Shown here: positions 3,766 to 63,212 of the stretch, one piece after another
How the letters are laid out: each line of letters starts with the position of its first letter
Position numbering within the stretch: position 1 is the stretch's first letter
Assembly (NCBI GenBank): GCA_905221605.1
Contig: CAJNDS010002486.1
Span: forward strand, 248,001 to 312,000
DNA: 64,000 nucleotides
Direction: 5' to 3'
Source: Symbiodinium natans
Taxonomy: Eukaryota; Sar; Dinophyceae; Suessiales; Symbiodiniaceae
The notes under the pieces: generated by a model
The model's input: only the letters and a program-made list of their open reading frames with translations
Databases searched by the model: none
What the model was told of the DNA's origin: nothing
Program-made: the position numbers and the translations under genes

Positions 3766-5969
3766 ATGTCTGTGAGATCCCAGGAGCGCATGAGCCTGCA
3801 AGAGGCGCACAGCTTCCTGCGGCAGAGGCGGCCCATTGCAGACCCTCGGCAGGCGCCCGAAGCCCGGTCTTTAGGGTTTGGGATTTCGGCTGGAGGCCTC
3901 CAAGCCTTAAGGTCCAAGTTCAACAAAAAGCATCAGAACAGCACAAGAAAGACGGCAAAAACCCACAACAGGACTCAACTTCTCAAGACCCAAAAGCGGC
4001 CCCCTAGACCTCGAGAGTTAAAACCTCAGCTCCCCCCCCAAAAGGAGCCTAATTTGGCAGAAGCCCCTGGAAGCCCCTGGAAGAGGGAAGTTTGAACATC
4101 ATCTTCAATTTCTTGTTCCCCTTCATCCCCTTAGAATAAATCCTTCTCAGGCCACAAAAATTAAGTTTTTTATAGGGCCCCCCAAAACCTACTACCGCTG
4201 GAAGAGAGGAGTTCCTGGTGCAGCTGGGAAGGCTCGAGTGCCAGCTCTTTGGTCGGGCGGAGCCCTCCCTGAAGGCATCTGAAGGGTTTGGGGGGGGGGG
4301 GGGGGATGGGTTTTGGGCTTATAATCCCTATGAAGGACTGGTTAGTATAATACCCCTATGATGGTCACTGTTAAATAAGTAGGGTTGTAGGGTTTGGGGT
4401 TTAGGAGCTTGGTGGATTTTTTTGGGGTTGGTCTTGATTGGAGCTTCTTGTTGAGAGTCTGAGTTCTGCTTCAGGCGCAGTTGTGGAACCCCCAACCTAG
4501 AACCCCCCAACCCAATAAGCGTGTTTAGGGCTCAGGATTTATGGCTGAGGGTCGGCATGCATTCTGCCCGCCCGGCACAGGCCGACGAGGTTTTCGCCGG
4601 GCGACGCATGCTTCTCGGCCTTGCGTGGAAGTGGAAGCGCGGGAGTCGTGTGGGGGACCTTGCCCCGAAACTGGTGCAAGGTTTCAAGGGGGCTTGATTG
4701 GGCTGGATGCTTTCTACAGGAGCCGATGTAGCTAGCCCGCTTTCCTCCGCCACCCGGAGGAGAACACCCTGGCATGGCTTCAAGCCGCAGTCTGCAATGT
4801 CAAGAACCCCGAAGCCATGGTGCCTTTTGGAGGCCTCTAAACCCGCTAAAGCCCAAAAGCCTCGAAGCCCAAAGAAAGGCTCAATGTGGATGGCGCACCA
4901 AGCCCAGTGCTGCAGGCCGGCACGGAGCATTTGTTGGTGTTCGCAGGCCCAGAAGGGAGGCTGATAGGAGGCCGGGGCCTACAAAATGTCCCAAGAGCAT
5001 CTCCTTGTAGTATGACAAAAAGCAAGAGTAACGCTATTCGCCCCACGGGGCCCGATCCAGCCGGCAGCGTTTGGCAGGAGCCAGGGCATAGCCCAGAGAT
5101 GATGCACGAGCTGGAGGTTCGGGGGAGACTGTCCTCGTCATCTTGTTATTCTTGTACTTCTTTACGTGTGATGATTTCTGTTGCGGGGCAGGGTTGTTAT
5201 TCTTCTTCTTCTTCCAGAAATTGGTTGCTGCCCTTGCTTTTGCTCGAAAACTCCAAGCTCCCCAACAAATCCCCAACAAATCCAGAGACCTCCACAGCCC
5301 AAGAACCCCCTAAACTCTCAACCCTAAATCCTGAGCCAGCCTGTCATTGAGGCCCTGCAGCAAGTCATGCAGAGCTTGAACTCGCAGCTGCAGCTCATCG
5401 GGGCAGAGGCCTGAGGGAGGGGTTTGGGGTTTGGGGTTTAGGGTTTTCAGGGTTCAGGGTTCAGGGTGTATGGTTTAGGGTTTAGGGTGTAGGGTTTCGG
5501 GTTTAGGGTTGAGGGGCTTCGGGCCCAGGGTTGCCAGGGAGCCCGCCTGGTCCCTTCAGGAAGAATATTATCCTTAAAGCATGTAGGGTCTTTTTTTTGC
5601 ATGATTTAAGATTAGTTGAAGGGTGGGGTTTTGGTGACGACCTGGAGCTTAGGGTTGATACCGCTAGGGCCGCTAGGGCACCCTGAGGCAGTGTGCTAGG
5701 TTGTTGGTGTGGTTTGGGGCCTTGGTCTCTCCTGTGCTCCAGGTTACCTAGGCCAAAGGCTTCCAAAACTCCAACTAAGTGGGACCAGCAAAACCTGCTT
5801 TGGAATGAAGTTTCCGGAGACCCGGCGTGTGTTACCCAGAGCTGATCGGGACAGCTTGCCATCCGAACTCCAGGCTGATGCTGCTGCGAAGGAGGTCCAG
5901 CAGAACGCCGATGCAGGCCCGGTGCTGCATATGCTCGAAGGCCGAATCGCAGACTGGAGGTCCTGCAAG
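3766..5969 (+). CDS. Unrecognised multi-exon protein, 5' portion
   Basis: No family recognised. The first exon, 3766-3852, starts MSVRSQERMSLQEAHSFL and ends at a GC donor. Likely following exons, all + strand: 4209-4274 (EFLVQLGRLECQLFGR, GC donor), 4581-about 4630 (ADEVFAGRRMLLGLAWK), 5078-5116 (EPGHSPEMMHELE, GT donor), 5352-5408 (ALQQVMQSLNSQLQLIGAE, GC donor) and 5874-5969 (ADAAAKEVQQNADAG..., GC donor). Most begin after an AG in phase 0, and codons end mostly in G or C. The Glu/Gln/Leu-rich exons look helical, possibly coiled coil. TTTAGGG-like repeats at 5415-5515 lie in the intron after 5408. The end of the third exon and the order of later exons are uncertain. Confidence 0.5.
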
Positions 5970-6767
5970 GCAGGTACTGCAACCCGGCAACCCGCGAAGC
6001 AGCAGTGCAGGTCCTTCATTGTTCTGCTTCCTCGAATCAGGGATTAGCTGCAAGCGAGCAGACATGTCAGCACCTTGTGCCATGAAGCCCGCATGCTAGG
6101 GAAATGACCCTGAGCCCGGCAACTTCCTTAGCACGGTGTATACCCACGGAGTGCATGCAACTGCGGACAAAGGCACGAAGCCTTGCAACCCTTGCTTACA
6201 TCCCTAAACCTTGGGGGGTCCCCGGATTCCAGGACCGAATGTAGAACTCCCAAATCCCCAGCCCTGCAACCCGGAATAGTCTTGTATGTTTTGGGAGCCT
6301 CTTGCGGCAGGCGCCGACGTGGTGCCAAGCTCAGGATTCGTCTTGGACGTTGCTAAACCTAAACTTCCCTAAGCGCTAGGCCTCAAACCCTAAACCTCTT
6401 TCTGCTGTTTGGTGTGGTTTACGGTTGTCCCTTGAATCCCCGCTGCTTTGCCTGCGCATTGAATCAATCGGGCCTGAGACAGTGTGAGACGTAAGGCGGC
6501 AGCATCGTCCCAAACTAGCACACGTGTGGAGGAGGGGAATCGGAAATCTTTGAATTCCAGAAGGCGCTCGACCACGCAGAACCTCAACTCCTGCACCCAA
6601 TTCCTTGCACGTTGTTTAGGATTGTTTAGGCCTCCGAATTTAAGTAAGGTCTGAAATCACTCCTACTGTATGAGGATCTAAACCAGTATGGCTAACGCTT
6701 CTTTCAGACCTCAGCCATACCAAATCCACAGCTTGGAAGCCGGGCCACCTGCTTCCCGTCATCTAAG

Positions 6768-7810
6768 TCCCCGCGGCGTGCGGAGAACGAGATGGCCTTC
6801 GTGGCGAGGAGGTGGGATCCATGGGTGTAGGAGTTCGAGGAAGAGGGCTTAGGGTTGTGGCGCTTGAGGTACATTAATTAATGTATACATGTACATGCAC
6901 AATATGCTGATGCGTGTTATAGGTTCGTTGACGAGCCAGCAGCTAAGACTAAGATGTCGGTTGCTGAGGTGACCGCTGTCAGCGTTTGGGTTGTGCAGAC
7001 ACTTGAGGCTGTACACGGGGATCTGTGTGCAGGGGCATTCCAGGCTCCCCAGAACTACGCGTGTTGTCTTATTAGCAGCAGCTCTACCCCTTTTCCCTCA
7101 TGTCAGATCCCCCTCCCCACTGAACTTCCCCTAATACCCAACCCTAAACCCAAGCCCAGTCCCTCGTTGACGTTGGATGGAAAGCGGCCCCATTTCAAGG
7201 CTCCCTGTATCTTCGAGGCCTCGCATCTCAAACCTTAAACCCGAAACCCCAGACCCTCAACCCTCCGGAAGACCAAGTCTCGGGGGAAATACCTTGTTCC
7301 AGAAACTGCGTAACTTCACTCACAACCCCTTGCACGGCAGGGAAAGACGCGGCCTCCTCAAACGGGGCCATAATGTGGAGAACTGCTCATCTACAGTAGG
7401 CCTGGGACCGATTCCTGAAAGGTATGTGTCGCAGTTGACGCTGCCTCCGAAGCCGATGGACGAGGCTCACAAGGGATTTTCCCTCCCCTCGCCCACCCGG
7501 AACCCAAAACCCTAAACCCCAAACGAGCATCAGCATCCCCCCGAGAGGCTCGCTAAACCGCTTGAGGGGGTTTAGTGTCTGTGAGGCGTCCATGCCGGAA
7601 CTCAAGCGCGAGAGAGATGCCTGTGAGGCGGGGATGTTTCTTGCGGCCGTGATGAACTCTGGGTTGGCTCAGGGTTTTTAGGGTTTAGGGTTTAGGGTTT
7701 AGGCTTTAGGGTTTAGGGTTTCAGGGCTTAGGGTTCAGCCCAAATGGACTGTTCTTGTTGCGCGCAGGCCTTGCTGGACTTCATGACAAGAACAGCAGCA
7801 GTCCTGCTGG
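6768..7810 (+). CDS. Further candidate exons, probably of the gene starting at 3766
   Basis: Short plus-strand open stretches following AG and followed by GT/GC/GA: about 6768-6811 (SPRRAENEMAFVARR), 7422-7473 (YVSQLTLPPKPMDEAHK), about 7594-7665 (ELKRERDACEAGMFLAAV) and from 7768 (ALLDFMTRTAAVLL, after GCGCGCAG). They show the same GC-rich third positions as the 5' exons and no stop codon, but phases were not all reconciled. They could belong to a second gene. CCCTAAA-like sequence at 7505-7520 and TTTAGGG at 7676-7735 border the 7.6 kb exon. Confidence 0.35.
7676..7735. repeat. TTTAGGG interstitial telomeric tract
   Basis: About eight units of TTTAGGG with point variants. It follows the candidate exon at about 7594-7665 and precedes the one at 7768, so it is inferred to be intronic. 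Confidence 0.9.
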
Positions 7811-7865
7811 ATCAGACGCCCGGCAAGTATCAAGTAGGGCGTGCCTTGGTTTGTGCTCACATTGA

Positions 7866-8895
7866 GGAAGTGAAACCCTGCACCCTAAACCCAGAACTGG
7901 ATGACAAGAATAATTTTGGGGTCCTTGTTGGCCTGTCCATTGAGCCGAGGAGAGATCACCTACGCGAGCCTGGGGGCCCAGGAGAGAGGTGTTGACTGAA
8001 GACAGAGAACCCTCGGAGAAGCCCGCAGGGGACGAGTGATTGCGCTCATTGATCGCGTGCGCAGTGCCCACAGCCCAGGTTCAAGGGCTAAAGGGGCCTC
8101 TCGGGTTCCCAATCTGCGCCGAGGCAGCTGCCTGGGCAAAATGCCCCGCACAGCAGCGGAGGCACTGGAGTCTTCTCCCTCTTCGGGTTTAGGGTTTAGG
8201 GTTTAGGGTTTAGGGTCTTGTGTTGAATAGAGCGCTGTTGGGTCTTCCCCTCCAAGCCCCGGCAATAGAAGCGAACCCACGAGTCGTCATGAGCTGGTAT
8301 TTTTCTCAGTAGGTTTTTCTAGGGTCACAGGAATTCGCTCCAAGCATTGCATGTGAAGGGTGCCCGCAAGAATGCACATGAAGCTTTTCCGGGGGATGTT
8401 CGGAGGTCTTGAGGTCTAAGTCTATGTTGGAAGTCGAAAAATCGGCCGCTGATCCGTTCAATGAGTTCAGGGAGACTTTGCCCATGGAAAAACGCGGCGT
8501 GGTCTCCCCCGCCCCAGCCAAACCTCCAAACTTGTCCCTCAAACGCCCATGAAGCCAAGCTAAATCCTAGCCTCTCAGCCCCGAACCCCCAAAAAATGAA
8601 GGCGGCCCCATGCAGAGCATGAGGCGGCCGATCATCTAGGTCCGCATGCTCCGGTGTGGAAAGGGGGTGCCTTTAACCTTTACCTTTTACAAGAAGGGCT
8701 TGTCGCAGCTACAACGCTAAGGCTTAGGCTTTATAGGGTTCGGTCTGTTGTGATTGCTCCATGACGTGGAGAGGTTCAGATCTTGAAGGGGCCAGTAGGC
8801 TGTCCACCGGAGCTTGACCTCCTCTGAGGGGTGCCGCGGAAGGAAGGGCGGTTTTCCAGACCTTCCGTCACAGCTCTGTCGGCGCACAGCGCGGC
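7866..8895 (+). other. Region with two candidate exons and a short TTTAGGG tract
   Basis: Mostly non-coding. Candidate plus-strand exons are about 8105-8168 (SAPRQLPGQNAPHSSGG) and 8851-8910 (TFRHSSVGAQRGCDCTYQ, preceded by TTTTCCAG and followed by GTGCGC). A TTTAGGG tract of about four units lies at 8188-8217. No domain is recognised. Confidence 0.25.
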
Positions 8896-9039
8896 TGTGA
8901 CTGCACATACCAGGTGCGCGGAGAGCGAAATCGCTTCAAAGGGGCGTCGGTCGCAGAGAGCGCCTGACTGTTATGTAGTTACCTTCGATGCCCCGAAAGA
9001 AGGGAGTCGAATCCACCCGTCCTCAGGCTCGGGGTGCAA

Positions 9040-9062
9040 ATGGTCAGTTCTCTAAATTGTGC
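9040..9062. mobile_element. Half copy (one terminus) of MITE-like family B
   Basis: ATGGTCAGTTCTCTAAATT here matches the terminal inverted repeats of the complete elements at 28184-28294 and 41370-41492. The partner terminus is not intact next to it, although AAAGGGACCATAACTT at about 9115 resembles it. Confidence 0.5.
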
Positions 9063-9120
9063 TCGCCTTCTGGGCACCCTAAACATTCGGGCCCCCGTTA
9101 CAATGGTAACCCCAAAAAGG

Positions 9121-9263
9121 GACCATAACTTACTTGGAGGTTCATTGTACTTATTAACTAATCATAACTGTACTTGTCTCTGTACTTGCAGCCATATTAG
9201 GGCACTTGAGGGGATACTATAATTGGTTAATACGCACCATGAACCTCCAAGTAAGGAAGTTAC
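9121..9263. mobile_element. MITE-like element, family C
   Basis: About 143 bp bounded by imperfect inverted repeats of roughly 35 bp. The left end reads ACTTACTTGGAGGTTCAT and then TATTAACTAAT. The right end (about 9225-9263) is its reverse complement with a few mismatches. The interior is AT-rich and has no coding potential. Only one copy was seen in the window. Confidence 0.7.
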
Positions 9264-9541
9264 CCGGATCTCTTTGCGACCTGCGTCCCAGAATTCGGCA
9301 CCCTCAGCGGGATCCCAGTCGGCCGGGGCCCTGCACCCCAAAAGTTCCTCAACGAAGACATGTTGAGAGCCCCCCAAACACCCAAGCAAGGAAGCCCGAA
9401 TGCACCCAAATGTTCCTCAACCAAGACATGTAGACAGCCCTGAAAATCCCCGGGTGCCCTCAAAAAATCACTCCGATAACTCCACAGCCCGTTTTGACAC
9501 CCTGAAACCCTGAAAACCTGGGCCGAAACATTGAAAGATTG

Positions 9542-9656
9542 CCCTAAACCCTAAACCCTACACCCCAAACCCTAAACCCTAAACCCTAAACCCGACAAAC
9601 CCTAAACCCTAAACCCTAAACCCTAAACCCTAAAAACCCTAAACCCTAAACCCTTG
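9542..9656. repeat. CCCTAAA interstitial telomeric tract
   Basis: About fifteen CCCTAAA units with a few interruptions (an ACACCCC and a CGACAAA unit). It lies in intergenic or intronic DNA some 240 bp before the terminal-inverted-repeat element. Confidence 0.95.
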
Positions 9657-10228
9657 AAAGATTGGGTGCAGGCCCCCACCATGCTCCCAAGCGCCGGGAT
9701 CCTTGCGGGCGCACAAGGGCGGTGAGCGTGTGCAACTGGGGCACGGGGCTGGGTCCCTGAGCCTTAAACCCTAAGCCATAAACTCTGAGCCTTATAAATA
9801 AATACATAAGTGAATAAACAAATATAAATAAATACATAAATAAATAAATACATAAATAAATAAATATCAATAAAAAAAAATATATATATATATATGCTAC
9901 CCCCCCCCAGCGACCTACCCTTTTTAGGCCTTTTTAACAAAAAACAACAAAGAAGGCCCAAAAGTCGCGTAGTTAATCACCGGGTAATGAAGGACAGTTA
10001 CTGGGACACCCACCTCACAGACCCCGATAAGCCAGCATTGGAAGAAACTACATTTTGAATCTGAAGCGGACAATGCTGTTTTTAGATGTTTAGATCAGTG
10101 TTTTTCTATGCAAATTGTGCGTTTCAAGAGCAATTAATGTTTTGTTGAGCAACTAATTTATTTATACAATTGTGTTTGTACGAGGCAAAGTATTAATCAA
10201 ATAGTGAAACATTTTTCTTGGTTCTTAT

Positions 10229-10829
10229 CGAATTTAGCTACTAGAGTAATTATTAAGCAAAGAGCCCAATTTGACTCAAGTGAATACTATTTACCTCAAC
10301 CAAGATACGAAATAAACACCATTCTCAACCAAAAAATGGCAAAGTGTGCGTTTAAAGTGCAAATACTGTATTTATTCAATTGTGTTTGTACTAGCAAAGT
10401 ATGCTCTCTGAAAAGTCCACTGAAATACCTTATGTTTACATATTCATGAATCGTTTTTATTTTTGAAATAATCATTTTATGCGAATTTAGCTACTAGAGT
10501 AATTATTAAGCAAATAGCCCAATTTGACTCAAGTGAATACCATTTAAAGGAGCATACTCAACCAAGATACGAAAGAAACACCATATTCAACCAACATATG
10601 GCAAAGTGTGGTTTACAGGGCAAATAGTGCTTTGTTGAGCAACTAATGCATTGAAACAGTTGTGTTTATACCAGGCAAAGTATTATTGAAGTACTATCTG
10701 CAAAGTCAAATGAAACACCTTATGTTTGCATATTCATGAAACAATTGTTTTTGAAGTATTCATTCTATGCGAATTTAACTACTAGAGGAATTCTTACGCA
10801 AATAGCCCAATTTGACTCAAGTGAATACT
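10229..10829. repeat. Three tandem copies of a roughly 250-290 bp AT-rich unit
   Basis: The phrase TTTAGCTACTAGAGTAATT, followed by TAAGCAAA and then CCCAATTTGACTCAAGTG, recurs at 10229, 10482 and 10768 with small changes. The preceding block containing CAATTGTGTTTGTAC also repeats. A fourth, degenerate start is at about 11374. The repeats lie inside the terminal-inverted-repeat element. Confidence 0.85.
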
Positions 10830-10874
10830 GTTTAAAGGACCATACTCAACCAAATACGAAATTAACACTTGCGG

Positions 10875-11570
10875 AAATGGAAACGATTCTACCTACATGA
10901 CAATGAGACAAAGATGGCTGAAGTATTCACTAAAGACCACTTATATACTACGGAAAAGCACAATTTGCATGAGCAAGCTTAAAAATGCACAATAATGGAA
11001 ATAGAAGCGGTTCTACTTACATAACGATGAAACAAAGATGTCTGAAGTATTCAATAAAGACCACATATATACTATGCCTGAAAAGCGCAACTTGCCCAAT
11101 CAGGCTTAAAAAATGCACAAGAATCCTAGAAAAGTACTTAGTGAAGGCCATACACAAGCAAATTCACAAATACATAAAAACATCTCAAAGCGCAAGCTTT
11201 TCAGGAGAATCTCTGGTAAAGTTTGGATTATAGGGTTTTGGGGTATTCCTGGACGAGTAGGAGTCACTTTTTAAGCAAACAGTTCTAAGCAATAAATGCT
11301 TTTTCTCAAGACAAGTATTGCAAATGCTGCTTCTAGATAATTAATCGCATTGAACCAGGCAAATATTATCCATGCGAATTGAGCTACCAGAGCACCAAGT
11401 AATGGCTGAATAAGGTCTACTACACTTGAGTACAACCAAAAGATGCACTAAACACTAGCGGCTCTACTTACATAATAACGAAACAAATAGTTCTGAAGCA
11501 CTAGAAAGACCACTTGTATACTATTTCTGAAAAGCACAATTAGCATAAGCACACTTAAAAAATGCGTAGT
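10875..11570. repeat. Second tandem family, about 115-130 bp unit, three copies
   Basis: Units at about 10875-10990, 10990-11121 and 11445-11570 share a core (TCTAC, CTACATAA, ACAAAGATG, TGAAGTATTCA, AAGACCAC, TATACTA, GAAAAGC and a closing AAAAATGC). They lie inside the same element as the 250-290 bp units and show about 80 percent identity by eye. Confidence 0.75.
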
Positions 11571-11572
11571 TG

Positions 11573-11890
11573 TTGCCTCGCGACCGTGAAGGCGAACCAA
11601 AAAGCCAAAATACCAAAACCAAAACACCAAAAATACCAAAACCAAAACAACCAAAAAAACCAAAAAATCCAAAACCAAAAAACCAAAAAATACCAAAAAA
11701 ACCAATTTTCCGGGACTCTTGGAGAAGCCTCATAGGGATTTCCTGAGAGTCCCGGATTTTTTTTTTGTATTTTTGTTTTTTTTAGTTTTGTTTTTTTTGT
11801 TTTTTTTGGTTTTGGTATTTTTGGTTTTTTGGGTTTTGGCTTTTTGGTTTTTTTTGGTTTTGGTATTTTTGATTTTTCTACTGTCCCGTG
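11573..11890. repeat. Large A/C-rich to T/G-rich inverted repeat (hairpin)
   Basis: The left arm (about 11590-11708) is a slippery array of CCAAAA and CCAAAAA words. The right arm (about 11757-11875) is the complementary TTTTGG array. The centre has a clean stem CCGGGACTCT / AGAGTCCCGG at 11709-11757. The strong strand asymmetry explains the low-complexity open frames here, which are not genes. Confidence 0.85.
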
Positions 11891-12184
11891 TATGCGATTT
11901 TAGTTGTATTTTAGTCTACGCCCTAGGAAATACGCTATATTGCACATCGAGTTTGCTTGCAGTGCAGCTGGGTGACTTGAGACAAGGCGAAAAAGGGTAG
12001 GTCACTGGGGGGGGGGGGTACCATATATATACATATATATATATATATCAAAATCCTTCAGACTCCGAAGCTGCAGCTACGTCGGAAGTTTGCGGGTCTG
12101 CAGGGGCCTTGGGGTCATGTGAGTGTTCTGCAGAGATTTGGCTTGAAGAAACCCGCAAAAACCCTGCACCTTAGACGCCTTGAA

Positions 12185-12365
12185 CCCGAAGCCCTGCAAC
12201 CCTAAAACCCCCTACAGCCCTAAACCCTAAAACCCTAAAACCCTAAAACCCTAAAACCCTAAAGCCCTAGAACCCTAAAACCCTAAAACCCAAAAACCCT
12301 AAAACCCTAAAACCCTAAGCAAAAGTCTAAAGCCCTAGCACCCTAACACCCTAAACCCCTAAACC
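12185..12365. repeat. CCCTAAAA (octamer) telomere-variant tract
   Basis: About sixteen units, most of them CCCTAAAA with one extra A, mixed with CCCTAAAG and CCCAAAAA units. The octamer predominates, unlike neighbouring heptamer tracts. Confidence 0.9.
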
Positions 12366-12907
12366 CTCAGCCCTAAGCCAACGTCTCAGCTTCGAGCGCC
12401 CCAATAAACCTGTCGCAGGAATGTCTTGCAAGATGTCAAGGCATGAAAGGTGTGCCTGTGTCATAGGGTTGATCCGTATTCCCCAAGCCCGCTTTTGATT
12501 CTCGCAGAATTCCTGAGAGCTTTCTTAAGGTTTAGGGTGGATGAGGGTGTAGGGTTTGGTGCACGCAGAAGGCCCAAGATCATCCCCGTGTGAAAGCATG
12601 TCCCACTTGTGAAGGGCCCTGCACGCAGACAGACCAGTTGCCGTAAAGGCATAAAAACATGCTGCACCTTGCCCGCGAGCATCGGCTGTGTGCTTGTCCG
12701 ATCCAGGTTAGCTCATCTTGCGGGACGGTTTTACTCTACGACTCCTCAAATCTGAACCTCCACAATGCTTTTGTGATGGTTTTACTGGTTCCCACATCAA
12801 CATGCTTCTGCGACCCCGAGATCGAGCTGAACCCTCAGCCCCTACTCCCGAATGCCGAAACCGTACATCCCTAAACCCGAAACCCCAAATCCCAAACCCC
12901 AAACACC

Positions 12908-41351: not shown

Positions 41352-41369
41352 TAGAGTAACTTATAGCTG

Positions 41370-45059: not shown

Positions 45060-45071
45060 CAATATTCGAGA

Positions 45072-52665: not shown

Positions 52666-52693
52666 ATCGCGTCCGTTCGCCCTGCGCATTTGT

Positions 52694-53707: not shown

Positions 53708-54190
53708 GGCTCCGCTCCTCGACCGATCGTCGGTGGGCTACTACACGGACTACATCGCCGCTTCCTTGGTGCAGTGGAAAGGTGTAGGGTTTCGGGTTTG
53801 AGGACTTGGTAGCCCAATTGTGCCCTTTTTCTAGGATCCCGTGTAAAAGTGGACCGAAGCCCTTAAGAAGGGTATGGTTGCCGGGCTAGCAAGCTTCCTC
53901 GGATGCTGCGCCGCGATCGGCCTGTCGGCTTCTGAGGGTTGGTTCTTAGGGATCTTAGGGTGATTCCTGAAGAGCCCTAAACCAACAGCAGGCCTTCTCT
54001 TTCCCAACTCGCCATGTCGGTTGATGTTTATAACATTTAAATGGCACCCTCAAGTTGAAGGGCCTGGTAGATGTTTAGGTGCCCCAGAAAGGGATCCACA
54101 GACCATGTGTCGTGGCAAGGGCAGCTCCGCCATGCGTGAAGGCCCTGCCCCTGGATGATGCGCCGGTGACCAGAGCCCTTGCCAAGGAGA
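53708..54190 (+). CDS. Candidate exons of an unrecognised membrane-type protein
   Basis: 53708-53781 (SSVGYYTDYIAASLVQWK, GT donor) joins in phase to 53860-about 53930 (KGMVAGLASFLGCCAAIGLS), a short hydrophobic Gly/Ala/Cys-rich helix. A third, about 54123-54185 (VKALPLDDAPVTRALAKE), follows with uncertain phase. TTTAGGG at 53627-53660 precedes the first exon. No domain is recognised. Confidence 0.4.
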
Positions 54191-55205
54191 GCTCAAGACC
54201 TGAAAAGCATACGGGTTGTGCTAAGTTGGGGCCCCTTGGATAGCACTTACACCCCCGGGTTATCGGGGCATGTGGTCTCGCGAAGTTTTACGCTGCGTGA
54301 TTGGCGCGACCCTGAGTCTGCACCCCGGGAGGGGTGTTCTGCCCTTCTCCACAGCACATCTATGACATGGGACCCCTCAGGTTTCCCCTCAGACCTGGCG
54401 CTCCCTCTGTACACGGCTGCAGCAACGAATGCACTGGGTCTCGACGCTCAGTGACATTCCACCTGCAGCCTTCAGGGGCATGTTTAACTGGAATGCAGAC
54501 AAAACTTTTTGCAGTGCACTTGGTATGCATTTCGAGGAACAGACTTTCAGCAAAACAAGCTCCTGAGAAACTCCCCGAAGGTCACCGTGCTGTGCTAGGG
54601 ACAGCAAGGACATCGCGCGAATCCTCGAATTCATGTCGGGGCTCCATGTAGACCTCCGGTAGTGAACCGACCATAGTAGAGGCACCGTGCGCCTGGTAGG
54701 TCCCCCCATAAACAAGCGAGCCGATGACCAATTATATAAGGGTGCAGACTGCCGACTGCCAGATCTTGCACATACAATGTTACAAGCATGATCAACACAT
54801 TCCCCTGAAGCGCATCCGCATGGGTTGGCGAATAGCCATAATCAATTGCTAGGAGGAAAATCAGGCACGAAAACCCATTGCAATCTTTCGTGGAGGCAAA
54901 GTCTTCCGTTGTGCCGGATTGGGCGGTCTTCCCTCTCTAACAGCTGGGCGTTCTCTCCGCTGTGCATCCTGGGTAGGATAGGCCCTTCTTAATCCTCTTC
55001 TTGGCTCTCTTAAAAAGGACCTTATTCAAAGGGTCTATATCCCCAAGGGTCCCCCTAATCCTATCAAGCCCTAAACCCTAAGCCCTAAATCCTGATTATA
55101 ATTCTAAACCCAAAACCCAAAACCCAAAACCCAAAACCCTAAACCCTAAACCCTAAACCCTAAACCCTAAACCCTAATCCTATCCCCTAGTGCAGGAGAA
55201 CAAGC
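54191..55205. other. Stretch without supported exons
   Basis: Ends in a compound tract at 55100-55190: CCCAAAA heptamers followed by CCCTAAA heptamers. The rest is unique sequence without recognised content. Confidence 0.4.
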
Positions 55206-56815
55206 TGCGCAGCAACCCTCAGCATGCCAGCAGCGGCCCCGGATGTCGATCACGGCATTTGGGGCTTCAGTGGGAAATTACACCCTGAGACCCCAATGAA
55301 CCCTAAACCCTAAACCCCAAACCCTAAACCCTGAACTCTTAAACCCTAAACCCTAAACCCTAAACCCTAAAACCCCAAACCCCAAACCCCAAACCCCAAA
55401 CCCCAAACCCCAAACCCCAAACCTCAGCCCAGTGCCCGTCGTCCCAAGAATCAGGTGGGTCGGCAGCGAAGTTCGACGACCAGACCGCCAGCAAGGAGTG
55501 CCAGGGCCACGATCGGAGTAAGCCCTAAGCCCTAAACCTTAAGCCCTAAACCCTAAACCCTCAAGCCCTAAGCCCTAAGCCCTGAACCCTAAGCCCTAAA
55601 ACCCTAACCCTAAACCCTAAACCCTAAACCCTTAAACCTAAACCCTAGAACCTAAAACCTCAAACCTAAAACCTAAAACCTAAAACCTAAAACCTGAAAC
55701 CTGACACCTGAAACCTGAAACCTGAAACCTGAAACCTGAAACCTGGAACCTAAACCGCCTCAGCCCGTAAACCCCTACCCCTAAACCTCAAAGCCTTCAG
55801 CCGCCTAAACGCCCACGAAGCCAAAACCACCCACCCACGAAGGAGGCATGGAGGCGCTACTCGCGCAAGGAGGCGTGGTCCAACTGGGAGACGCACGTGG
55901 GGTTTAGGGTTTGGAGTTTAGGGTTTAGGGTTTAGGGTTGGGGTGTAGGGTTTAGGGCATAGGGTAAACCCTAAACCCTAAACCCCAAACCCTAAACCCT
56001 AAACCCCAAACCCGGTGGTCGGACTTTCCTGGCAGGCCGCCCGGGCGCGGCAGAAGAGCGCCAAGCCAAAGGTCCATTCCTTTTTTGGATTTAGGGTTTA
56101 GGGTTTAGGGTTTAGGGTTTAGGGTTTAGCTTTTGGTTGGTTCCTTCGTTCGGCTACTGGGCAACCTTGTGCGCAGGTCGGGCGCAGCAGCACGCTGCCC
56201 TCAGGTGATCTCCTGATGAAGAGGCGGCCAGCCCTAATCACCTATCTTCGAACCCCAAAACCCCATAGCCCTACAACCCTGAAACTCTGGACCCCCAAAA
56301 CCCTGCATTCATGAGGATTCCTTTTTTGAGTTCAGGGGTGAAGCTCCTTAACCAGCGAGAAAGCCCAAGCCCCAAGCCCTAAGCCCTCCATGGAGGTCCC
56401 TTGTTGAGGAACTTAACACAGCTACCACAATTCGGACACCACGTGATTTAGGATGCGCTACCTAACATACACATTCTCAAAAAGGCCCCATGGCCTAAAG
56501 CCGAAACCCTGAACTCCAAGCCCTGGACTCGGAATGCTCCCCCCTTACGCTAACAGTCCTTCATAGGGATTATAGTACCCCCGACTACAATCCTTATTAA
56601 GGACTGTTAGTATAACTGTATAAGGGGGAACATCTCAACCTAAACCCTAAACCTAAACAATAAACCCTAAACCCTCAACCCTCTGCAGTATCTTGGGGCT
56701 GTCAATCCTGAGATGCGCTGATCTGTTGCAAATCCGCAGGTCTGTCACCCATCAGGCTTTTGGGCCCCCGTATCGGGCGCGCGAGCCTCAGCCCCTCCTG
56801 CTTAAGCGGCAAGCT
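55206..56815 (+). CDS. Chain of candidate exons, basic protein, unrecognised
   Basis: Plus-strand islands between telomeric tracts: about 55197-55260 (ENKLRSNPQHASSGPGC), 55449-about 55517 (SGGSAAKFDDQTASKECQ), 55843-about 55898 (EAWRRYSRKEAWSNWETH), about 56028-56063 (AARARQKSAKPK, GT donor), about 56178-56230 (VGRSSTLPSGDLLMKRRP) and about 56740-56812 (SVTHQAFGPPYRAREPQPL). Each follows AG and shows G/C-rich third positions, but not all phases were reconciled. Lys/Arg/Ser-rich and probably disordered. It may continue into the exons at 57.6-60.4 kb. Confidence 0.35.
55290..55425. repeat. CCCTAAA tract passing into a CCCCAAA array
   Basis: The first half is CCCTAAA. The second (55371-55422) is about eight identical CCCCAAA heptamers, showing an abrupt change of variant. 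Confidence 0.95.
55520..55750. repeat. CCCTAAA/CCCTAAG tract passing into AAACCTA/AAACCTG heptamers
   Basis: From 55640 the unit becomes AAAACCT and then GAAACCT, each repeated several times, so the array drifts in steps. Confidence 0.9.
55900..56017. repeat. Intron-sized head-to-head telomeric hairpin
   Basis: TTTAGGG units (55900-55965) meet AAACCCTAAACCC units (55966-56012) directly. The block lies between the candidate exons at 55843 and 56028. Confidence 0.95.
56531..56636. mobile_element. MITE-like family A, copy 3
   Basis: The best-preserved copy: left ATGCTCCCCCCTTACGCTAA then CAGTCCTTCATAGGG, right AAGGACTGTTAGTATAA ... TAAGGGGGAACATC. The inner 20 bp arms are complementary, giving a two-stem fold. 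Confidence 0.8.
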
Positions 56816-56990
56816 TCAGGGTTTTAGGGTTTAGGTAAACCCTAAACCCTAAACCGTAAACCCTAAACCCTAAACCCTAAACCCTAAACCCTAAACCCTA
56901 AACCCTGAACCCTAAACCCTAAACCCTAAACCCTAAACCCTACACCCTAAACCCTAGACCCTAAACGGTTTGGGGTTTAGGGTTGAGGGC
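56816..56990. repeat. Head-to-head junction then CCCTAAA tract then TTTAGGG
   Basis: TTTTAGGGTTTAGGT meets AAACCCTAAACCC at 56836/56837. The CCCTAAA array runs to 56965 and is followed within 3 bp by GGTTTGGGGTTTAGGG, so both junction types occur within 150 bp. Confidence 0.95.
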
Positions 56991-57180
56991 AGCGCGACGT
57001 GAATTTTCTGCAGAGGTCTTTGCAACGAAAGCCTAGGTCGTCTCGCACTGAACCCAAACAACTCAGCCCCAGGTTTAGGGTTCGGGGTTTAGGGAACCCT
57101 CAGCGCAAGCCCGAAACCTGCAACGCTCACAGGATGCTCAGCTCTTGGAGACGTGGAGAATTGGAGAGTTATGATTGTGA

Positions 57181-57183
57181 ATT

Positions 57184-57258
<75 letters not shown>
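57181..57258. repeat. (ATG)n microsatellite
   Basis: About 26 ATG/GAT triplets, followed by TTATTATTA, TA and TG arrays to about 57350. Confidence 0.97.
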
Positions 57259-57589
57259 ATTTATTATTATACATAATTTGAGAATTATGTATTTATTGTT
57301 ATATATATATATATAGTGTGTGTGTGTGTGTTTGTGTTGTTTGTGTTGTTTGTTTAGGTGTTGTTGAAGTTTTTAGGGTGCGATTGGGTTTAGGGTTTAG
57401 GGTTGAAAGCCCGAGCCCTAAGCCCCAAGCGCCAAGGTTACGATGCAGCAAACGCTAAACCCTAAACCCTAAGCCCTAAACCCTACACCCTAGACCCTAA
57501 ACCCTAAACCCAAGCCCCTAAGCCCAAAAACATATATTCCTCAACCCTAGGAGCCCTCCTCTCCTCCTCCTAGTCCCAAGTGCAGCTAC

Positions 57590-60405
57590 CCAGGTTCAAG
57601 AGCGAGCCGGCCAAGCCGCCCAGGACCGCCATCACAACGTTTAAGGGGTTTAGGGTTTAGGGTTTAGGGTTAAGGGTTAAGGGTTTAGGGTTTAGGGTTT
57701 AGGGTTTAGGGTTTAGGGAGTATCGATGGTGCCCTTACAATATTTTCCAGGCTATTCTGGGGGGAGGTTCGAACATTCCGGGGGAAGGGCCTGCCCAGTG
57801 AAGGGTTTCGGGTGGGCGAGGCACCCTATAGCCTGCGAGTGTTTCTTGTGAGCCAGCGGCAGCCCAGACAGCATGCGGAGGCCGAATCTCTTCCTTCCGG
57901 GCCGAAACCATCCGTGCACGGCTCGGCTAGGGGGTGTGCCGTCTAAGGTTCATAGGACCTGTGGGGCTTCAGGGCTTACAGGGCGTTTAGGGGGTCTTAC
58001 AGGGCTTATAGCTTATCGGGCTTAAAGGGCTTAAAGGGCTTAAAGGGCTTAAAGGGCTTATAGGGTAGGGCTTATAGGGCTTTGTAGGGCTTAATCCTAA
58101 ACCCTCGGTGCGGCCGGTCGGGACAGACATTTAGCATGGGCTAGGGCGGCCGTCATGGCAGGATGTAGCAGGTCACCAGAGGGTATAGGAATGTAATATT
58201 TCATGTGTAGATCATGGGGCTAGGTTTGCGTGAGTTGTGCTTGCCAGACTAGAGCAGGCAGGCAGGTAGGTTGATAGGTTAAACCAGGTTTAGGTTAGCA
58301 CAGGTTGCCTGCAGTGGAGAAGGGTTCGACAGGTTATGTGCGAGTATCAGGGAGGACGTTCGTGCAGCGGGCTTCAGGGTAGTTGGGCAGGGCCGGGGGG
58401 ACGAGGAACGAACGCCCGAAACTGTATGGAAACCTGAAGCCCCAAACCCTGAAGCCTTAACCCCGAACCCTAGATCCTACTAGCCACCACCTTAAAAGCC
58501 CTTCAAGCCGCACGTTCCGAGGGGTTTGACGAGTCCCCTCTGAACTGAGGCCCTCAACAGCCTACCGATCTGAGTTCACCGACCCCGGAGCGCAGAGGCC
58601 TTGTTGGTTGAGTCAGGGTTTAGGGTTTAGGGTTTAGGGTTTAGGGTTTAGGGTTTAGGGTTTAGGGTTAGGGTTTAGGGTTTCGGGTTTAGGGTTTAGG
58701 GTTTAGGGTTTAGGGTTTAAGGTTTAGGGTTTAGGGTGGCCTCGGGGGTTCATCCGGGTGCCCTTCTTTGAGTACTGTGGTAGAGTTGTAGCAGGCAAGG
58801 ATGCGAGAGTAGAGCCGGCCCCTTCCCCCCCCCCTTTTCCCCCAAAGATTTAGGGGGGCGATTTAGGTAAAATTTAGGTTTCTTCTGTTCTGTTTCTGTG
58901 CGGACTCACAAACTAAATTCGGGTGAAACGGGTTGGGTCGTGCAGCCCAGAAACATGCTGCACTTGATCGTGGCCACTCTTTACTGCCCTGTGCAAAGTC
59001 AATGCACTGAAAAAGACGATATAAGGTATATACAGAGGGGTTATGTAGGGGAAGAAGATTAAGGATCCCTTCGGCTTGGGTGAGCTATTACATCATTGCC
59101 CGCGGAATCCCCAAACCCTCCAACCCCGAGCCACTGAAACCCCCCCCTCTAACAGCGCGCGACCGGTTTGGTCCAAGCCACCGAATTCACCAAAGCCCCA
59201 AACCCATCACAGCCCGAAACCCATCATAACCCAAAACCTCAAACCCTAAACCCCAAACCTCAACCCCCAAGACCCCACCCAGCTGCTCATGCCAGACCCG
59301 AGACGCCGAGCGCCCAGCGCCCATCCACGGCCACGGCCAGGCTGGCAGCCTCGGGTCTTTGAGGTTTAGGGTTTAGGGTTAGGGTTAGGGTTTAGGGTTT
59401 AGGGTTTAGGGTTTAGGGTTTAGGGTTTAGGGTTTAGGGTTTAGGGTTTAGGGTTCCTCTTCTGGGTGCCTCTTTTGGGTGCCTCGTATTGGGTTCCTCT
59501 TTTGGGTTCCTCTTCTGGGCCAAGGTCAACAATATAGGTGGTGGGGGATTTTGGGAGGACAATTACCACCCCGCAGACCTCCATACTTCGTGCTGGAGCC
59601 CTGGACTCTTCTGCAAAGCCTTCGAATCATCTGGCTGTGCGAAAAAATGGGTTTCCGCGTTATGTTGACTTAACTTTCAAGTTCCTGAACATCGACCAAA
59701 CGGCCCGAGGCCCCCCTGCCAAGCCAAACGTCAGTGGACGCCAGCATGTCCTTTTGTTAGACATGTGCTTGCAGCGAAAAACCCTAAACCCTAAACCCTA
59801 AACCCTAAACGCTAAACCCTAAACCCTAAACCCCAAACCCCAAACCCTAAACCCTAAACCCTAAACCCTCATGGGGCAAGACGCAGTATGCACATGGCTT
59901 CGGGTTCTGGGTGAGCAGGGAAGCCGTGGAAAGGGGGCTTGGAAAGGGCGGCTGCCATGAAAGGGGTCGTCCTCCGCCCCTCACCCTAATCCCACAAAAC
60001 CTAATCCCACAAAACCCAAGGGTTTAGGGTTTAGGGTCTAGGGTCTAGGGTCTAGGGTTTCGGGTTTAGGGTTTAGGGTTTCGGATTTAGGGCCTTTTCG
60101 GCCCGGGATGCTTGAAAAGCCTGCAGGCTCCAGTCGGCCAGCGGTGCCGCGCAGCCTGCCGCCCCGAGGCAGAGTAGGGGTCTGGGGTGTAGGGTTCGGG
60201 GTTTCAACCCTAAACTCTATAAACCCTAAACCCTGAACCTTAAAACCTTCCCCCTTTTCCCCAAACCCTAAACCCTAAACCCGAAACCCAAAACTCTAAA
60301 CCCTAAACCCTCGCCCACAGGAAGCCTGCCCGCTGCCAATCTGCCCCCGCCGGTGGCCGCAAGCCGGTCTCGCCGCCCTCGGAAGACTGGGGCGAAGGAC
60401 CTTGG
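57590..60405 (+). CDS. Chain of candidate exons, Ser/Pro/Arg-rich, unrecognised
   Basis: Islands: about 57584-57638 (FKSEPAKPPRTAITTFK), about 57831-57930 (VFLVSQRQPRQHAEAESLP), about 58555-58603 (YRSEFTDPGAQRPCW), about 59291-59362 (TRDAERPAPIHGHGQAGS, donor GTTTAGGG), about 60129-60172 (SSRPAVPRSLPPRGR) and about 60321-60400 (SLPAANLPPPVAASRSRRP). All are on plus, each after AG, between CCCTAAA and TTTAGGG tracts. Composition suggests a long disordered protein; whether this is one gene or several is not established. Confidence 0.35.
57960..58092. repeat. GGGCTTAAA / GGGCTTATA nonamer repeat
   Basis: Six or more GGGCTTAAA units in a row (58018-58060) within a longer GGGCTTA-rich stretch. 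It is unrelated in period to the telomeric heptamer. Confidence 0.9.
58617..58737. repeat. TTTAGGG tract
   Basis: About sixteen units with one TTAGGG hexamer and one TTTCGGG. It starts 14 bp after the candidate exon at about 58555-58603. Confidence 0.95.
59365..59456. repeat. TTTAGGG tract starting at an exon boundary
   Basis: Begins at the GT of the candidate donor at 59363. It includes two TTAGGG hexamers followed by about ten perfect heptamers. Confidence 0.95.
59780..60092. repeat. CCCTAAA tract, short island, TTTAGGG/TCTAGGG tract
   Basis: CCCTAAA (59780-59870), island 59871-60018 (candidate exon MGQDAVCTWLRVL at about 59875-59915), then TTTAGGG with three identical TCTAGGG units (60020-60090). 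Confidence 0.9.
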
Positions 60406-60469
60406 GGGCTTCAGGGGTTTAGGGTTTAGGGTTTAGGGTCTAGGGTTTAGGGTTTAGGGTTATTAGCTA

Positions 60470-60999
60470 CCTTGGCATATTTTCTGTTTTTCCTTATTGG
60501 GTTGAAGAGGTTTACGTTTAGGACTCTTTTTCAGGGGTTTTCAGGGGCTATCCTAGATAAAGAGTTGGGGTCTTAGGGCTTGAGTGCTTCAGGGCATTAG
60601 GGTCTTGGGGGCTTGCGGGCTTCGTGGTACACCGGGATTCAGGGCTTAGTGCTTCAGGGCATTTTTTTGGGGGCTTTCGGGGTTGTTTGGGATTTCGTGG
60701 GCACATCGGTCTGGTCGAAATGACCTGCGATTGAAAACACTCAGGGGTTTGAAAACATGCATGGCTAGACCGCTAGCAAGCCTAACAAACTTGAACCTCC
60801 AGGGTTTAGGGGAGGTTTCTAGAAGGATTGCATGCGAGGTGGACGCACTCCATGTCAGCCTTTTTTTCTTTAGTACGGGGATGTGCATGAACTGTCTCGC
60901 CCGCCTCTGCTAGGAATCGAATCGCTTTCCGAAGCCCATTTCAGCTTCCGAGTTGCTCGTAGTTTCCGATTTTCATCTCCCTTTGCTTCGTCCTCCGCC
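60470..60999. other. 5' flank of the cysteine-rich peptide gene
   Basis: No supported exon. CCATTTCAG at 60937-60944 is a good acceptor 56 nt before the ATG at 61000 and could be the trans-splice site for a leader. The leader itself is not encoded here. Confidence 0.35.
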
Positions 61000-61137
61000 A
61001 TGCGCCGCTGCGCCCTGATCCTGGCGCTGCTGCTTTGCTGCGAGGGTGCCCGCGACAGCCAGAAGGAGCTGTTGAACCTCGTCGCCGAGGAGCGCGAGGA
61101 AGATGCCTCCCGGCTTCAGAACGTGGCTAACAGCTAG
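61000..61137 (+). CDS. Signal-peptide ORF, first part of a split cysteine-rich secreted-type protein
   Basis: 45 codons from the ATG at 61000 (context GCCATGCGC) to TAG at 61135-61137. The N-terminus MRRCALILALLLCCEGA is a clear signal peptide; a Glu-rich segment (LLNLVAEEREEDASRL) follows, like a propeptide. The same frame continues open after the TAG into a Cys-rich stretch (61138-61419). Either the TAG lies in a short in-frame intron (a GC donor at 61127 is possible), or it is read through, or the gene is broken. No joined product is proposed here. Confidence 0.6.
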   Translation: MRRCALILALLLCCEGARDSQKELLNLVAEEREEDASRLQNVANS

Positions 61138-61419
61138 CAGACCCCCCATCCCAAGGAGAGCAGTTTTTCCTTAGTAAGAACTTTCGGGTGCAAGAAAAAG
61201 ACCGTGGGTCGCCAGGCGTCGGGCAAGGCAGTGGAGGACCACGGCCATGATCAGAGCGATGCGAACCCCTGGAGATGCAGCGGCGGTGCATGGATCGAGG
61301 GGGGGCATGGCAACCACCAGTGCAGCTCAGACAGCGACTGCTGCAACAAGAGGGACTACAGCTACTGCTGCTGCAAGGACCAGTGTGCCCGTTGTGGGTA
61401 CGGCCCCTGCAAACGCTAG
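61138..61419 (+). CDS. Cysteine-rich domain in frame with the upstream signal peptide
   Basis: 93 in-frame codons from just after the TAG at 61137 to the TAG at 61417-61419. The last 48 residues hold ten cysteines spaced C-x14-C-x5-CC-x7-CCC-x3-C-x2-C-x4-C. This is a disulfide-rich framework reminiscent of knottin or defensin-like secreted peptides, but the exact spacing is not one I recognise. Function is unknown; a toxin-like, antimicrobial or cell-wall role would be speculation. Confidence 0.5.
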   Translation, partial: QTPHPKESSFSLVRTFGCKKKTVGRQASGKAVEDHGHDQSDANPWRCSGGAWIEGGHGNHQCSSDSDCCNKRDYSYCCCKDQCARCGYGPCKR

Positions 61420-62377
61420 TCACCGAGTTGAGCTGCAAGGCACCTAAGTTTGGCCTCACCGCTTGGATGCGCCGTGGACCTCGAAAAGTCGGCATACTGT
61501 TTCGGTGAAAGGGCGCGTAGGGAGTGTGGGCAATAAGAGAGGGCATCGGCATAAACGCTGGCGAGCCTTGATACCAGGATTTGACGTCTTCTGGGGTCAC
61601 GCCGCAGTACTCGTTCGTTGGCAAAGACTGGACGGCGTTGTAGGTTTGGAGTTCACGATTGTTGGGATTTTGGTCTTCTCGTCCTGTCGCATCCGAGCCT
61701 GAAGCCCAAAACCAGAAACTTAAACCCCAAACCCTCAACCCTAGGAGCCCTAAACCCCAAGCTCCTGCTCCTGAGTGCCAGGCTCTTCCACCACTGCGTC
61801 CGTCGCGCCCCGGCCGGCCTCGGCCGTCGCGCGGTTGCAGGCCGGCGGGACTCTGCGCTGAACTAGTCAGAGGCTTCGGGATCCAAAAGAAGGGGTCGCT
61901 CAGATACATCCCCAAGCCATATTATCATCCTGATTCTAGGAGGCCCCAAATTAGGGGGAAGCCACCCACTTGCTTTCACCGAAAGCACAGGGAAGCGCCA
62001 GGTGTTCAGAGAAAGGGTGTGGGGGCGTTGATCTAAAGGTCCTTGTAGAGGTACAAAGGAAGACGCGCCTTGAGCTGTTTGTCAAGCACTTCCGACCCTG
62101 AACCCTGAACTCCCGAAACCCCTCCATGGCTCATCTTGCTCTTGTGTGGGAGGCTCCGATCTCTCGAAACCCCAACCTCTGGTCCCGAGCTCCACCTGCT
62201 TTTGAATTCGGAGGGTCGTCTCTTAAAGGGTTTTGATGTATGGGCCCTTCATCTGCATAGGGTACAAAAGGGGCATTCAAGGGGCCTCTGTAAGGGGCAC
62301 CCTTCTAAGGGCCCATACTAGGGGACCATGGAACTACCCTTGAGATTTCGGGGTTTTGGCTGGGTGTTACTCGCCAG
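61420..62377. other. Stretch with one candidate terminal exon
   Basis: About 61780-61866 follows GAGTGCCAG and reads LFHHCVRRAPAGLGRR with TAG at 61864-61866; Arg-rich readings in other frames are equally open. The remaining sequence shows nothing recognisable. Confidence 0.3.
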
Positions 62378-62960
62378 GCGCTCTTGTGCCGAAACGAGGA
62401 GATCTTCAAGGCCCTCTTGGGTTTGTGGTAGGGTTTAGGGGTTTAGGGGCTTAGGGAGTTAGGGGTTTAGGGGTTTAGGGGTTTAGGGGTTTAGGGGTTT
62501 AGGGGTTTAGGGGTTTAGGGGTTTAGGGGTTTAGGGGTTTAGGGGTTTAGGGGTTTAGGGGTTTAGGGGTTTAGGGGTTTAGGTTTAGGGGTTTAGGGGT
62601 TTAGGGGTTTAGGGGTTTAGGGTTTGGGGTTCCTGGACAGCTTTCGAGTTGCCGGTTCCGCAACGCAAGTAGAGAGCGTCCGGGAAAGTCTTTTGCTGCC
62701 TCAGGTGCGCCGCGCCTGCTATCTGAGCCCCGGCCAGTGACCGGGGTTACGGGGTTTAGGTTCCATACGACCTATAGGGTTTAGGGTTTAGGGTTTAGGG
62801 TTTAGGGTTTAGGGTTACCCTCAGCGCTAGGCTCTGTGATCGCGCATCGATGCGCTTCCGGGACCTAGACCCATGACCCCAAGGGAAATGCATGCAATTC
62901 AAGTGGTGCAAGACGCACTTCTGGCCCCCTTCGGGCATTTCCCAAAATAGACCCTAAACC
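62378..62960 (+). CDS. Candidate exons of an unrecognised gene
   Basis: 62378-62410 (ALLCRNEEIFK, after CTCGCCAG, GC donor), about 62725-62755 (VRRACYLSPGQ) and about 62888-62945 (KCMQFKWCKTHFWPPSG). The latter two are Cys/Trp-containing and G/C-ending. TTTAGGGG and TTTAGGG tracts separate them, and CCCTAAA (62950-63008) follows. Phases are not resolved. Confidence 0.3.
62440..62628. repeat. TTTAGGGG (octamer) telomere-variant array
   Basis: About twenty-two consecutive TTTAGGGG octamers with one internal TTTAGG. It is the reverse-complement variant of the array at 33886-34205. Confidence 0.97.
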
Positions 62961-63146
62961 CTAAACCCTAAACCCTAAACCCTAAACCCTAAACCCTAAA
63001 CCCTAATCCCCTTATATGCAGTCCTGGCAGGATTTTGGGGGTACTTCCTATTTTTGGGAAGCTCCCGATTTGGCCTTTGCAAGACACGATCTGTCCCTGG
63101 ACTAGGGCAATAAAGAGCATCCTCTTCGAGGCCCTATAACACTGGG

Positions 63147-63212
63147 GTTTAGGGTTTAGGGTTTAGGGTTTAGGGTTTAGGGTTTAGGGTTTAGGGTTTA
63201 GGGTTTAGAGCA
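63147..63212. repeat. TTTAGGG tract
   Basis: Nine perfect heptamers ending in TTTAGAG, following a 135-bp island bounded on its left by the CCCTAAA tract at 62950-63008. Confidence 0.95.

Follow-up and report, generated by a model that had tools for sequence, protein, structure and literature searches.

Why should the exons of a dinoflagellate gene lie between telomeric repeats, with CCCTAAA before them and TTTAGGG after them? The question is raised by a 64-kb stretch of the Symbiodinium natans genome (contig CAJNDS010002486.1, positions 248,001 to 312,000; hereafter the window, whose own numbering is used throughout), for which an earlier note had claimed precisely this polarity. The window holds 282 exact TTTAGGG and 390 exact CCCTAAA units, and a small hidden Markov model of both repeats called 201 tracts in it, comprising 7865 bases in CCCTAAA (R) tracts and 5229 bases in TTTAGGG (F) tracts. 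An exon with R upstream and F downstream is called an RF exon below and the reverse arrangement an FR exon; a flank was scored as carrying a tract if the tract lay at most 60 bp from the exon, with 100 bp as a second cut-off. Our answer concerns this one window of one species and the two genes mapped in it, both on the plus strand, exons of one gene are not independent of each other, and the p values for coupling are exploratory.

Gene 2 (23622-40612) encodes P0121, an S. natans protein of 619 amino acids named Caltractin, which was among the 35 matches to stitched exon peptides in a protein search and all 619 residues of which are rebuilt exactly by 33 plus-strand exons in a spliced alignment. 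By this match the window is S. natans or cannot be told apart from it. The acceptors of gene 2 are AG and its donors GC, GT or GA, in an alignment that gave AG acceptors and GT, GC and GA donors higher scores. Gene 1 (3777-22091), joining a phosphatase-like N-terminal part to centrin, is the ortholog of P0156 from Symbiodinium sp. KB8, the single match of a protein search; it was mapped by spliced alignment, and tblastn matches, including those to centrin, extend over 3784-22091. Of its 33 aligned blocks 28 were kept; blocks 1, 9, 15, 16 and 17 were removed before counting on account of tiny size, poor matching or the lack of an AG acceptor. The boundaries of the gene 1 exons rest on our own alignment, and some gene 1 "introns" span removed blocks; since P0156 is from another species, however, these exons are independent of the S. 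natans annotation.

The polarity of the tracts around exons is real. At 60 bp, 21 of the 61 mapped exons are RF and 4 are FR, one has R and another F on both sides, 4 have R upstream only, 7 F downstream only, 1 F upstream only and 4 R downstream only, and 18 have no tract. Exon-sized segments drawn at random from tract-free parts of these gene spans, no closer than 20 bp to an exon, yielded on average 0.7 RF, 1.5 FR, 1.0 RR and 0.4 FF per 61, with an RF maximum of 5 in 300 trials. Gene 2 accounts for 15 RF, 3 FR, 1 RR, 1 FF, 5 one-sided and 8 tract-free exons among its 33, and gene 1 for 6 RF, 1 FR, 11 one-sided and 10 tract-free exons among its 28. A comparison with displaced positions in the two genes gave the same answer: the observed polarity score was reached by none of 2529 circular shifts of the exon set in gene 2 and by none of 2629 in gene 1. 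At finer scale, R makes up about 42% and F about 8% of the 21 to 100 nt before gene 2 acceptors, and F about 42% and R about 11% of those after its donors, the shares in the region as a whole being 19% for R and 11% for F, and the 20 nt adjoining the splice sites are poorer (14% R before acceptors, 7% F after donors).

The order is also visible in the tract map alone, with exons ignored. Among 99 tracts of at least two units, 24 of the 29 R-to-F gaps are no longer than 200 bp (76-169 bp) with 12.6 expected, an excess reached by none of 20,000 label shuffles (p = 5e-5), and F-to-R gaps of up to 200 bp stand at chance level (12 of 28 vs. 12.6 expected). That R-F islands are mostly exons, as had been supposed, holds inside the two mapped genes, where an exon lies in 24 of 28 R-F islands of 61-180 bp compared with 4 of 17 F-R, 1 of 8 R-R and 1 of 4 F-F islands of that size. 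It is likewise correct that introns tend to run from TTTAGGG to CCCTAAA, this being the order in 22 of the 25 introns with both tracts. To speak of every exon island as bracketed was, however, an overstatement; the full bracket surrounds only about a third of exons (21/61 within 60 bp, 24/61 within 100 bp), and 4/61 are arranged the opposite way. A codon-bias exon scan, since replaced by the protein-mapped exons, had the right trend, with 10 RF (2.5 expected) and 5 FR (3.3 expected) among 48 plus-strand segments and 11 RF (1.7 expected) among 36 minus-strand segments, the latter possibly being shadows of plus-strand exons.

To which unit do the paired tracts belong? If an intron-like element, or a break that was healed and fused, had supplied them, then one event would have given both the F tract that follows a donor and the R tract that precedes the next acceptor, and the two should therefore be coupled. 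With the exon counts given in the order both, R only, F only and neither, we find 21/5/8/27 across the exons of both genes (odds ratio 14, p = 8.5e-6) and no coupling across their introns (14/15/11/19, odds ratio 1.6, p = 0.43). This contrast was first noticed in gene 2 and then tested in gene 1, which at 100 bp gave 9/2/3/14 across exons (p = 0.0015) and 3/9/7/8 across introns (p = 0.42), the introns at 60 bp being likewise uncoupled (3/8/5/11, p = 1). When introns were divided by length (n = 17, 20 and 21), F-R coupling was absent from each class (p = 1.0, 1.0 and 0.40), and since the 17 shortest, of up to 260 bp, are uncoupled too, closeness alone is not the explanation. The coupling across exons persists in a homolog-backed set, for which gene 1 was joined by those 22 exons of gene 2 that at least 5 of 31 other homologs cover (14/5/8/23, odds ratio 8, p = 0.0013), and in the homolog-backed gene 2 exons by themselves (8/2/3/9, p = 0.03). 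Flank lengths correlate at 0.67 across the 61 exons vs. 0.03 across the 28 introns longer than 400 bp. Thus the exon, and not the intron, is the unit of the paired tracts, which argues against introner-like elements as well as against healing and fusion of breaks.

Where tracts flank an exon on both sides, they are inverted with respect to each other in 25 of 27 cases and direct in 2, and even with F upstream, 4 of 5 such exons have R downstream; complementarity across the exon is thus favoured in its own right, with one polarity preferred. Inverted repeats of at least 8 nt connect the 100-nt flanks of 31 of the 61 exons, compared with 20.4 when flanks were swapped (maximum 29 in 500 swaps), while at 14 nt the figures are 10 and 4.4 (maximum 9) and at 10 nt 18 and 11.3, the maximum of the 500 swaps being there also 18; intron ends are unremarkable for inverted 8-mers (22/56 vs. 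19.2). In folds predicted for naked RNA, the 21 RF exons have on average 65 flank-to-flank pairs vs. 29 in 39 others, and the bracket of exon 39095-39165, around which an RNA stem is predicted, folds 6.4 standard deviations below shuffles (z = -6.4). Two multi-exon folds placed 108 and 198 tract pairs across the tracts' own exon and none across the intron between neighbouring exons, with 156 and 46 pairs joining other tract combinations. Among the 34 exons flanked by one tract or none, cross-exon pairing was slightly stronger than with swapped flanks (-51.2 vs. -48.7, p = 0.04), a difference on which we do not rely. RNA pairing at the level of the intron was rejected as a selected feature, the duplex energy of an intron's own pair being not clearly better than that of swapped pairs (-69.4 vs. 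-65.4, p = 0.15).

In gene 2, the two arms that flank the same exon share repeat variants to no greater degree than arms around different exons do (0.462 vs. 0.464, n = 19), the same being true of arms within one intron (0.485 vs. 0.497, n = 17), and arm purity, a rough clock, is uncorrelated around RF exons (rho = 0.07, n = 21); the lengths of these arms show a weak correlation (rho = 0.43, p = 0.054, n = 21). Because neither variants nor purity are common to them, the two arms do not look like the outcome of one copied event, and hairpin copying of one arm from the other was rejected on the same grounds.

How, then, could such brackets arise and persist? The reading that we prefer, at a probability of roughly 45%, is that interstitial telomeric repeats have been retained as inverted brackets that help to define very short exons, perhaps in the form of an RNA stem. 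It starts from what is observed, namely the polarity of the tracts, their link with exons, their inversion and the coupling of flanks across the exon but not the intron. The repeats would enter Symbiodinium introns in either orientation, by telomerase or by recombination, and those that came to lie on both sides of an exon in the RF arrangement would be retained since they would aid the spliceosome in recognizing it. The unit reads (CCCTAAA)n, some 20 bp, a very short exon, another 20 bp or so and (TTTAGGG)n. From what is generally held about splicing signals, the C-rich repeat upstream could provide a pyrimidine-rich, branch-point-like region (CUAAA) and the G-rich repeat downstream could provide G-run enhancers; in addition, the two could pair into a stem that leaves the exon and both splice sites in its loop. 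Such a stem would conceivably let RNA structure define exons that are very short and whose donors are mostly the non-canonical GC. A bolder version, in which the telomere repeat is a two-sided punctuation of exons whose inverted brackets loop out each micro-exon either as RNA or, in a genome that has few nucleosomes or none, as DNA to which telomere-repeat proteins bind, and so serve as a structural exon-definition code that offsets degenerate GC and GA donors, seems to us doubtful.

Several points weigh against our preferred reading. Stems that enclose an exon favour exon skipping in other systems, and they are also known elsewhere to favour back-splicing. As many as 18 of the 61 exons, conserved centrin exons included, have no tract within 60 bp, so recognition must work without one and the brackets are not essential. 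RF exons are not shorter than others (median 46 vs. 43 bp, p = 0.16), homologs cover them somewhat less often (p = 0.11), and their bases are not clearly freer in the predicted folds (0.73 vs. 0.66, p = 0.17); in the fold of exons 29-32 the 108 own-exon pairs are outnumbered by the 156 pairs of other tract combinations. Gene 1 taken alone at 60 bp gave only p = 0.095 across exons (6/3/5/14). Finally, the support that donor type lends to this reading is weak: GT donors occur in 0 of 21 RF exons vs. 9 of 38 others (p = 0.02), with GC used by 20 of the 21, but this comparison is one of several, and an F tract downstream is by itself unrelated to donor type (GT in 4/29 vs. 5/30). In S. natans as a whole, 58% of donors are GC and introns average 486 bp (PMC10666404).

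The main rival is a DNA process bounded by the exon, in which the exon is spared while nicks or breaks occur in the flanking intron, and the 3' ends facing away from the exon are extended by telomerase before they are rejoined. Extension of the top strand rightward would give TTTAGGG and that of the bottom strand leftward would appear as CCCTAAA on top, such that the polarity would follow from telomerase chemistry without any selection. The R-exon-F order and the exon-level coupling are exactly what this process predicts, the weak correlation of arm lengths speaks for it, and telomerase acting at free 3' ends has been proposed as the source of plant telo boxes (PMC3022908). However, one event should give like purity and like variants, neither of which is seen, the process explains neither the 4 FR exons nor the scarcity of R-F islands that lack an exon (4/28), and it requires an unknown exon mark on DNA. 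We thus consider it unlikely.

Less probable still are double-strand breaks in introns followed by telomere addition to both ends and fusion, which would leave exon-TTTAGGGn-CCCTAAAn-exon. The predicted polarity is seen and near-direct F/R junctions do exist (8 of 63 F-R gaps are at most 15 bp, e.g. 55963/55966), but the mirror R/F junction, which fusion cannot make, is about equally common (6/63), and unrelated sequence mostly separates F from R. Introns made by telomere fusion should have F and R coupled and abutting in the same intron; neither the intron coupling (odds ratio 1.6, p = 0.43) nor the numbers of abutting tracts (8/63 F/R vs. 6/63 R/F) have this character.

Very improbable, in our opinion, is an origin of the introns from introner-like elements or transposons whose terminal inverted repeats are telomeric (TTTAGGG...CCCTAAA). 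Dinoflagellates are documented to have introners (PMC7789003, PMC11453091, PMC10666404), the F-then-R order of 22 of 25 two-tract introns is the expected one, and direct repeats of 3-5 nt are present at the junctions of 36 of 56 introns. The direct repeats can, however, be explained by AGG, which is carried by 97% of S. natans acceptors (PMC10666404), and F and R are uncoupled within introns. By the criterion of Farhat 2021, which PMC10666404 quotes for P. cordatum, an introner has an inverted repeat of 8-20 nt within 30 nt of both intron ends; among 56 introns shorter than 1500 bp we found one such case, compared with 1.6 by chance when ends were swapped. Nor does the window contain a family of shared interiors: of 36 masked self-matches in the 64 kb, 4 join distant places, at 26-82 bp each, and most fall inside a PPR gene and a block of repeats at 9-12 kb. 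With intron coupling absent, the causes first proposed for the pattern, an introner-like element and telomere addition followed by end joining, are probably wrong.

As improbable is an artefact of annotation or composition, in which predicted exons would simply be the islands between masked repeats and tracts would be locally clustered: S. natans was annotated from RNA-seq and IsoSeq transcripts on a masked genome (PMC8045281) and several RF exons are covered by only 0-2 of 31 other homologs, but masking is blind to orientation, the coupling persists in the homolog-backed set described above, random intronic segments lack the pattern, and local clustering would have coupled the 17 introns of up to 260 bp as well (p = 1.0).

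How do the brackets compare with known systems? With the introners of Amoebophrya, Prorocentrum and Polarella they have in common inverted repeats in introns and non-canonical splice sites, but introners belong to sequence families and have their repeats paired at either end of a single intron, no more than 30 nt from it, whereas here the exon is the pairing unit, tracts begin about 20 nt away and interiors in the window are not shared. Exon-flanking inverted repeats such as Alu pairs, which promote back-splicing to circular RNA, likewise have complementary flanks predicted to pair across the exon, and the excess of complementary flanks beyond chance that marks them is present here at 8 nt (31/61 vs. 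20.4); unlike them, our brackets are built of tandem telomere repeats, prefer one polarity and recur at many exons of a single gene. Plant telo boxes and other interstitial telomeric sequences (Gaspin et al. 2010, PMC3022908) place the motif AAACCCTA inside genes, with spread by telomerase proposed; these are, however, short single motifs enriched in 5' untranslated regions, and what we see are tracts of 19-350 bp, in opposite orientations, around mapped internal exons. Scars of chromosome healing or telomere fusion resemble the TTTAGGGn/CCCTAAAn junctions present in places, but here mirror junctions are similar in number, interiors are mostly non-telomeric and coupling within introns is lacking. 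None of the entries listed in searches on telomeric repeats in introns, interstitial telomeric sequence with intron gain or splicing, introners, S. natans introns and exon-flanking inverted repeats, taken mostly at the level of titles and abstracts, describes such brackets, and the main text of the S. natans genome paper contains no word beginning with "telomer". In Karenia, fluorescence in situ hybridization revealed interstitial telomere signals only rarely (PMC6395649), although short interstitial tracts may escape this method. A scan of viral contigs for R-N80-110-F and F-N80-110-R arrangements gave 0 matches for each.

The individual brackets, all on the plus strand, each extend from the first base of R to the last base of F. 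In gene 1 they surround exons 3777-3852 (R 3712-3754, F 3870-3889), 5352-5408 (R 5305-5334, F 5419-5532), 13638-13675 (R 13586-13620, F 13695-13752), 14299-14322 (R 14257-14276, F 14338-14406) and 16639-16671 (R 16498-16606, F 16710-16805), and the centrin exon 18961-19002 (R 18814-18949, F 19025-19137). Gene 2 begins its series with exons 24474-24532 (R 24230-24457, F 24543-24566), 25528-25573 (R 25342-25510, F 25608-25680; covered by 0/31 other homologs), 26008-26048 (R 25813-25995, F 26069-26203), 28905-28966 (R 28826-28883, F 29017-29047; 25/31), 30904-30942 (R 30789-30881, F 30977-30995) and 32760-32826 (R 32642-32727, F 32845-32915; 30/31). These are followed by 34232-34272 (R 33862-34211, F 34301-34383; 1/31), 34630-34689 (R 34452-34612, F 34704-34815; 25/31), 35329-35377 (R 35262-35295, F 35397-35430), 36077-36141 (R 35892-36072, F 36172-36264), 36566-36598 (R 36539-36563, F 36632-36679; 0/31) and 38664-38709 (R 38553-38627, F 38719-38853), and the series closes with the stem-forming candidate 39095-39165 (R 38889-39080, F 39175-39323), 39643-39672 (R 39459-39590, F 39692-39764) and 39963-40014 (R 39902-39925, F 40051-40069). 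The FR exceptions, with F upstream and R downstream, are the plus-strand exons 7768-7814, 28641-28674, 33282-33333 and 37737-37753, the last being 17 bp long and backed by P0121 only. The exons that the earlier note had singled out within these two genes correspond to mapped ones, with some boundaries corrected: 34232-34269 became 34232-34272, 34618-34696 became 34630-34689, 36077-36171 became 36077-36141, and the exon placed at 39088 runs from 39095 to 39165.

Beyond the mapped genes, the interval 41000-63900 contains 13 more R-F islands of 61-180 bp vs. 6 F-R islands, possibly exons of unmapped genes; examples are 43747-43892, 60312-60406 and 51495-51601, the last enclosing position 51496, a candidate exon. 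Near-direct head-to-head TTTAGGG/CCCTAAA junctions at 19579/19581, 47909/47912, 55963/55966, 56834/56837 and 60204/60206 resemble telomere-fusion scars, with mirror junctions elsewhere. An intronless PPR gene at 48787-50832, which found 1214 proteins at E values of at most 1e-20 among 7992 scored candidates (the best named relatives, among the best 120 of the 1214, being from Polarella, Symbiodinium and Effrenium), is preceded by F tracts and followed by an R tract, the opposite of the exon brackets.

As for the two genes themselves, some P0121 homologs are named PH domain-containing, and P0121 is called Caltractin although centrin sits in the adjoining gene 1, so that the name possibly reflects a transfer error or a different model. 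The last P0121 exon (40272-40612) is covered by 0/31 other homologs and the C-terminus of the homolog P0123 (residues 537-555) matches 43508-43564; the database model of P0121 may therefore end wrongly. A peptide stitched together from gene 2 matched none of the solved structures significantly (best E 0.24). In P0156 a phosphatase-like part (Pfam PF00782) is joined to EF-hand/centrin domains, which could represent either a true Symbiodinium fusion or merged gene models; the introns of the centrin part (18256-21821) have GA, GC and GT donors, as reported for dinoflagellates. Between mapped exons of gene 1, at 9129-12038, lies a block of local repeats, both direct and inverted and 77-88% alike, that has no relation to the telomeric tracts. 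On the minus strand, opposite to both genes, the open frame 2282-3391 matches WW weakly and below the cut-off (E 0.039). Pfam searches of plus-strand frames in 3500-13500, 22000-32000, 31500-37500, 36200-46200 and 53800-63800 detected no convincing exon-level domain, the few matches having E values of at least 0.11 and all lying under the cut-offs.

In dinoflagellates, many of the exons to be spliced are very short and their sites have unusual donors. A two-sided, oriented repeat mark around such exons, if true, would be a readable and directly testable exon signal and would give interstitial telomeric DNA a new role. The window also carries a caution for the study of dinoflagellate genomes, namely that inverted repeats in their introns need not be the ends of introners, for here they are paired with the exon and not with the intron.

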